64,000 nucleotides of DNA from Lentisphaerota bacterium (lineage in GTDB: Bacteria > Verrucomicrobiota > Lentisphaeria > Victivallales > Victivallaceae): contig SUVS01000005.1 in NCBI GenBank assembly GCA_015061885.1, positions 1 through 64,000 of the forward strand. The letters are read 5' to 3'. Made by a program: the position numbers and the translations under genes. Under the pieces are notes generated by a model. The model was not told the DNA's origin. It made no database searches and saw nothing but the letters and a program-made list of their open reading frames with translations. This document shows, one piece after another, positions 59,649 through 59,805 of this stretch (positions within the stretch are counted from its first letter, which is position 1; every line of letters starts with the position of its first letter).

Positions 59649-59676
59649 AAAAAAAGGCACATTCCGAAAAAGTGCC
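59649..59676 (-). terminator. Intrinsic terminator between structured RNA and small ORF, copy 1
   Basis: Minus strand GGCAC-TTTTTCGGAAT-GTGCC-TTTTTTT. Confidence 0.75.
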
Positions 59677-59805
59677 CTCATCTACGTCTGCAACAACGCA
59701 ACAAATCCACACAAGATCGAAATGTGCCAAACCACACGGTTTGGGCACACCGATTCCAAAAATGGATTTGTTTACGCCATCTTTTAAGTTGCAGTTTTGA
59801 TGAGG
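59676..59805 (-). ncRNA. Candidate structured leader/small RNA, copy 1
   Basis: Nested perfect helices: CCTCATC/GATGAGG, CTGCAAC/GTTGCAG, ACAAATCCA/TGGATTTGT, apical TGTGCC(C)AAACC-GTGT-GGTTTGGCACA; followed by an intrinsic terminator. Confidence 0.6.

Follow-up and report, generated by a model that had tools for sequence, protein, structure and literature searches.

The window analysed here, the first 64,000 nucleotides (nt) of contig SUVS01000005.1 from a 2.96-Mb draft genome of a Lentisphaerota bacterium (GenBank assembly GCA_015061885.1), carries on its minus strand two copies of a structured RNA, each placed in front of an open reading frame (ORF) of 126 amino acids. Copy 1 lies at 59648-59822 and copy 2 at 60571-60745, 923 nt apart, and the two are identical across the 157-nt query. 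Both belong to a 923-nt tandem repeat, 99.3% identical, that holds the RNA (59649-59805 and 60572-60728) together with the ORF (59248-59628 and 60171-60551); the encoded protein, of unknown function and without a Pfam match, is the same in both. A preliminary description, drawn from the letters alone, had proposed at this site a rod of four nested helices, a 3′ hairpin, a run of seven U residues, a ribosome site and an ATG, and had left the choice between a cis-regulatory leader or attenuator and a 6S-like small RNA (sRNA). Every segment that it named was located on the minus strand where it had been placed, and all coordinates below refer to that strand.

The rod is closed by P1, in which CCTCATC (CCUCAUC in the RNA; 59805-59799) faces GATGAGG (GAUGAGG; 59682-59676), and continues through P2, formed by CTGCAAC (CUGCAAC; 59794-59788) and GTTGCAG (GUUGCAG; 59694-59688), into P3, in which ACAAATCCA (ACAAAUCCA; 59771-59763) pairs with TGGATTTGT (UGGAUUUGU; 59709-59701); these assignments come from the predicted fold and from pair counts among homologues. 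The segments TGTGCCCAAACC (59749-59738) and GGTTTGGCACA (59733-59723) lie in the upper rod, where P4a (AAUCGGUGUGCC; 59744-59755) pairs with P4b (GGCACAUUUCGAUC; 59715-59728) to give P4, and the apical hairpin P5 (the CAAACC-GUGU-GGUUUG region; 59729-59743) lies between the two. Downstream of the rod, GGCAC (T5; 59676-59672) and GTGCC (59660-59656) are the arms of a short local hairpin, followed by the U-run (T7 in the DNA; 59655-59649), the ribosome site AAGGA and, 20 nt past the U-run, the ATG at 59628-59626. The minimum free energy (MFE) predicted for 59640-59810 was −66.3 kcal/mol against −40.1 ± 4.1 kcal/mol for dinucleotide shuffles (z = −6.4; 0 of 200 as good). The element extends further 5′ than the initial limit of 59805, as the conserved ACTGATTGTAA at 59820-59810 is also part of it; transcript 5′ ends were guessed from conservation.

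To describe the homologues, we used two covariance models, R1, built from 26 copies, and R2, built from a divergent subfamily (subfamily 2); E-values of such purpose-built models are rough, and all sequences come from draft assemblies. Copy 1 is a full match to R1 (E = 6.5e-40). R1 matched 39 of the 79 genomes of the family and 54 of the 138 of the order, with up to 14 copies per genome and more than 130 in total; five copies lie in the source genome beyond the two in the window, and others occur in other genera. R2 recovered subfamily 1, to which the window belongs, and the two subfamilies therefore form one superfamily. Three more genomes of the phylum gave weak matches (E = 2e-6 to 4e-5 per genome). 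An exact pattern searched in 85,488 named species genomes returned 26 stretches, all of them in Lentisphaeria or Lentisphaerae drafts; those with a source in the title come from ruminant gut. A phage or plasmid origin was considered and set aside, with no match in phage or plasmid collections and none to an exact pattern in viral contigs.

The initial remark that the RNA fits no familiar riboswitch class agrees with a covariance-model search against Rfam 15, which found no family at gathering score in the window (best sub-threshold scores, 16.5 of 95 bits and 14.3 of 105 bits) and likewise none in the homologue L019. Acido-Lenti-1 RNA (RF01687; PMC2864571) is a structured RNA from Lentisphaerae that is listed as not cis-regulatory; it resembles the present RNA in being a structured Lentisphaerae RNA, and its Rfam model gave no match to the present RNA at gathering score or at E 10. 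No description of such a Lentisphaeria RNA was found in the literature, a 2017 collection of 224 motifs being outside that scope. The family, of about 175 letters and outside Rfam, may thus be previously undescribed, with an earlier description in the 2017 collection possible.

Three alignments were used to examine pairing: A1, a sequence-only alignment of subfamily 1; A2, a large alignment fitted to the rod alone; and A3, an alignment of subfamily 2. In A1, the share of paired cells was 94.5% for P1 and 99.5% for P2, and every pair of these two helices showed changes on both sides. Over the whole rod, 84.8% of A1 cells were paired, compared with 72.7% in shuffles and 32-49% with slid partners, and 33 of 48 pairs had changes on both sides (0 of 500 shuffles as good). 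The same helices were paired in A3 (P1, 91.8%; P2, 100%; P3, 80.4%; P4/P5, 92.0%). Because the helices pair and covary in both A1 and A3, the alignments indicate that the rod is a real RNA structure. Compensatory changes were found in all four helices that the preliminary description had drawn, and its judgement that they were unlikely to arise by chance holds, since covariation across homologues places the structure far above chance. The basal P3 pairs (GCGU:ACGC) were rejected as a general feature, since only 56% of subfamily 1 cells were paired and inspection of subfamily 2 showed no such pairs. A coding reading, in which the downstream ORF would extend in frame through the RNA (166 codons from a GTG), was also rejected, given that the helices covary and the homologues are rich in indels.

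A second set of helices uses strands of the same RNA. The 5′ strand 5E (ACTGATT; 59814-59820) pairs, as ACUGAUU, with AAUCGGU of P4a, reaching −16.1 kcal/mol with flanks in copy 1, and its subfamily 2 equivalents are GCAUAAAA:UUUUGUGC, GCAUAAUU:AAUUGUGC and GCACAAUUU:AAAUUGUGC. P0 joins ACGUC (59805-59809) to GGCGU (59774-59778); it occurs as ACGUC:GACGU or ACGUC:GGCGU, with compensatory versions AGGCU:AGCCU, UAAGGCU:AGCCUUA and UUGGGCU:AGCCCAA in relatives. P0′ is a hairpin (GCGU...ACGU; 59684-59699) with the P2 3′ strand inside its loop; it occurs as ACGC:GCGU, with compensatory variants GAGC:GCUC, CCGC:GCGG and ACAC:GUGU in relatives. Last, P4b pairs with T3′ (UUCGGAAUGUGCC; 59656-59668), the terminator 3′ arm, in variants that include GGCACAUUCCG:CGGAAUGUGCC, GGUGCAUUUCUG:CAGGGAUGCACC and AGCGUAUUCCGGUC:GACCGGGGUACGCU, the T3′ segment ending at the U-run. 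The first RNAalifold run on the sequence alignment gave mainly this P4b:T3′ helix, a conserved terminator stem. It is also retained in the weak matches elsewhere in the phylum, where inspection showed P2 or a replacement, plus P0-like pairs.

Because A2 was fitted only to the rod, the alternative helices were tested by duplex energies, comparing cognate with permuted partners across 108 copies. All four stood out (5E:P4a, z = −14.7; P0, −12.7; P4b:T3′, −12.3; P0′, −7.6); the known rod helices P2 and P4a:P4b gave −21.4 and −11.8, and four control pairs of elements not expected to pair had z values from −2.0 to +1.3. By pair counts, P4b:T3′ was formed in 99.3% (A1) and 96.6% (A3) of cells and P0′ in 98.1% and 89.7%; 5E:P4a reached 96.8% in subfamily 2 and was weaker in subfamily 1 (70%), as was P0 (66%). 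One partner is often nearly invariant within A1 or A3, so that much of the compensatory evidence stems from comparison between the subfamilies. Nucleotides are common to 5E:P4a, P4 and P4b:T3′, which makes P4 incompatible with the other two; P0 and P0′ hardly overlap the bases of P1, P2 or upper P3.

T3′ therefore has two candidate partners, the adjacent T5 and the distant P4b. Mean energies over the 108 copies were −6.9 kcal/mol for T5:T3′ versus −15.8 kcal/mol for P4b:T3′, the latter an 11-15-bp stem that adjoins the U-run directly. In the window copy, the local hairpin has 5 bp, an 11-nt loop and −6.5 kcal/mol, and P4b:T3′ has 12 bp and −18.9 kcal/mol; the length of that local loop is why a simple consensus scan of the window found no classical terminator. 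Among subfamily 2 and order-level relatives, T5:T3′ often contributes almost nothing (for example, −0.4, −0.9, −1.3 and −1.4 kcal/mol), and the U-run and P4b:T3′ are retained. At least 13 copies have a local hairpin above −3 kcal/mol yet keep the U-run and P4b:T3′ (mostly −12 to −19.5 kcal/mol). In the relative G040, the local hairpin scores 0.0 and P4b:T3′ forms 15 bp at −22.6 kcal/mol, and in the relative G393 the values are −1.3 and −24.3 kcal/mol (0 of 200 shuffles as good for P4b:T3′). The simplest reading of these comparisons is that P4b:T3′ is the conserved terminator stem, with the local hairpin added in subfamily 1, window included. The hairpin first taken for the terminator is thus present, but it is weak and not kept across the family, and it is P4b that is conserved as the partner of its 3′ arm. 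Similarly, the proposed competition between the closing helix and this hairpin stands in so far as base 59676 is common to both, but it is minor: in the conserved competition, strand P4b is claimed by P4a or T3′, and strand P4a by the 5′ end or P4b.

We considered the position of the RNA relative to genes, counting as a gene start an ATG with a ribosome-site-like sequence that opens at least 60 codons on the same strand, 5-100 nt downstream. Such a start followed 63 of 100 testable copies (observed range, 13-98 nt); the same criterion gave 1% when applied to the upstream side and 6.2% for randomly chosen places. Single-linkage clustering grouped the 83 downstream proteins for which a start was recognised into 29 families, which include EcoRI-type adenine methylases, zinc-ribbon proteins, ankyrin and Sel1 repeats, staphylococcal-nuclease homologues and sugar dehydrogenases. 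In 34 of 65 nearest-neighbour RNA pairs, the two proteins that follow belong to different families, indicating that the leader has been re-used before unrelated genes. The 126-amino-acid ORF of the window had only two homologues in a large protein search, and its relatives in the same genome (35-50% identity) also have the RNA in front. EcoRI-type adenine methyltransferase genes follow eight RNA copies and staphylococcal-nuclease homologues four (L102, L105, L120, L128, L093 and others); such methyltransferases and nucleases are unusual companions for a common leader. Among the commonest downstream proteins are those that combine a zinc-ribbon-like N-terminal domain (CPxC ... EDEWxGxxxxCPxC) with variable C-termini (for example, at L042, L071, L022 and L095).

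Immediately upstream of the RNA lies an A-rich conserved block, GAGGT...GGATAAAAG...TTTGGC (59823-59865), which is a probable promoter region; it resembles either a non-sigma-70 promoter or a ribosome site that lacks a start codon. The same block, GAGGT...TGAATAAAAA...TTGGCAAACTG, is also found upstream of subfamily 1 homologues in several genera.

Numbered from the 5′ end, 5E, P4a, P4b and T3′ are four strands that pair as 1:2 (5E:P4a), 2:3 (P4a:P4b) and 3:4 (P4b:T3′ followed by the U-run), and all three pairings are conserved with covariation. On the predicted pairings, this mutually exclusive arrangement is the topology of a transcription attenuator. As in an attenuator with an intrinsic terminator, two exclusive helices, P4a:P4b and P4b:T3′, both use P4b and both covary, and one of them is a G+C-rich stem followed by a U-run. 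The two folds are thus the rod P1-P2-P3-P4 and a set comprising 5E:P4a, P0, P0′ and P4b:T3′. Stepwise MFE prediction of growing transcripts gave 5E:P4a and P0 early, replaced by P4, P3, P2 and P1 once the 3′ half appears. Of the two architectures initially offered, the cis-regulatory leader is the one supported by the compensatory changes in the rod, the linkage to gene starts and the exclusive conserved helices that include the terminator 3′ arm.

We suggest, with a probability of about 0.6, that these RNAs are a new family of bistable cis-acting attenuator leaders, possibly riboswitches, and that each is probably an on/off switch for one of many unrelated accessory genes. On the emerging RNA, 5E:P4a and P0 would form first. 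When the rod then zips up, P4b would be locked in P4 and the long-range terminator stem blocked, and polymerase would read into the gene; we infer that this is the ON state. A signal, conceivably a small molecule, a protein or an RNA, would hold the 5′ half in the early fold, allowing P4b:T3′ to form and transcription to stop before the gene. Each element apparently brings its own upstream promoter-like block and would have become attached to many unrelated accessory genes. If so, an uncatalogued multi-copy regulatory RNA family is present in a poorly studied gut-bacterial phylum, and mostly uncharacterised gene families (zinc-ribbon and repeat proteins, methylases and nucleases) would be under one control device and perhaps one signal. 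That both alternative folds are visible in covariation is unusual, and it makes the switching directly testable.

Several observations weigh against this proposal. Of the nested folds, the rod is by far the more stable (whole-leader energies of about −64 to −77 kcal/mol), and its thermodynamic dominance means that the terminator state would require kinetic trapping, a ligand or pseudoknotted coexistence; the two helix sets may partly coexist as a pseudoknot. In subfamily 1, including the window, the local T5:T3′ hairpin could also stop transcription with the rod formed, and a loop of about 60 nt is unusual for a terminator such as P4b:T3′. For roughly one copy in three, no gene start was recognised within 100 nt. 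The permutation tests share ancestry with the data and relatedness is incompletely removed from them, the control pairs being the best guard.

The trp, his and leu leaders and other amino-acid attenuators likewise have four strands with 1:2, 2:3 and 3:4 pairing, the last an intrinsic terminator before the gene. Unlike them, the present RNA has a long-range terminator stem and strands tied by a separate three-helix rod, occurs in many copies per genome and precedes genes that are not biosynthetic; reading of the leader found no conserved start codon with a ribosome site 5′ of P4, 5E itself reading TTG TAA. Terminating riboswitches share with it a pseudoknotted conserved core, a bistable expression platform and an intrinsic terminator shortly before the ribosome site. 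A more specific version of the attenuator proposal is a riboswitch proper, with the conserved internal loops and the P0/P0′ pseudoknot as a ligand pocket and a small molecule selecting the fold. The conserved unpaired UGAA, CUUCA and UUUGUGU and the crossing P0/P0′ beside P2 are typical of aptamers, and intrinsic terminator control and many genomic copies would fit. However, there is no Rfam riboswitch match, several conserved loop positions differ between subfamilies, and the controlled genes, from zinc-ribbon proteins, EcoRI-type methylases and staphylococcal nucleases to ankyrin and Sel1 repeat proteins and sugar dehydrogenases, have no common metabolite or pathway. We hold this reading only tentatively, and the same reserve applies to its fuller form, a new riboswitch class of Lentisphaeria and relatives whose pseudoknotted core would sense a signal and control a scattered accessory regulon through the terminator made by the rod tip and the 3′ end.

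The remaining readings give the neighbouring genes or the RNA itself another role. A stand-alone sRNA about 175 nt long, with a promoter and a terminator of its own, a single pseudoknotted fold (P1-P3 with 5E:P4a, P0, P0′ and P4b:T3′) and only incidental gene neighbours, would account for the complete unit of conserved upstream block and U-run, the conservation of the crossing helices, the copies without a near gene and the decayed copies without an intact one. It is rather improbable, as 63% of copies lie 13-98 nt before a same-strand start codon with a ribosome site and 1% on the other side, and P4, through its common nucleotides, cannot coexist with 5E:P4a and P4b:T3′. The 6S-like variant, which the long rod-like hairpin and similar size recall, is disfavoured by the tight gene-start linkage, the up to 14 copies per genome, the alternative folds with a terminator arm and the lack of an Rfam 6S match. 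Two further candidates have very little to recommend them. The order of RNA, terminator and small gene and the tandem copies recall the antitoxin RNA of a type III toxin-antitoxin system; that reading is contradicted by the diversity of the downstream genes, whose 29 unrelated families are, where shown, not of the ToxN, CptN or TenpN type, and the RNA has no internal tandem repeats. A hairpin before each of several unrelated accessory genes and tandem arrays would also suit an integron attC-like recombination site in a cassette array, an equally far-fetched reading given the U-run, the upstream block and the asymmetric 5′ and 3′ ends, the fact that tandem copies mostly bear the same gene family, and the absence from the source genome of an integron integrase (TIGR02249) over the family cut-off.

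Some minor features of the locus and its relatives are worth recording. The tandem direct repeat comprises units 59176-60112 and 60099-61035 with a period of 923, and a 61-nt piece is present at 59129, 60051 and 60974 but at no other place in the genome. At L008 (G000:C80:8434 and 8874), two decayed 3′-half copies of the RNA, with an ORF-start remnant, lie within a 440-bp tandem repeat; they are fossils of a leader-gene unit. Downstream of the ORF in the window, 55871-59066 on the minus strand encodes, as judged by eye, a probable MBOAT-type acyltransferase and a probable radical-SAM/B12-binding protein.
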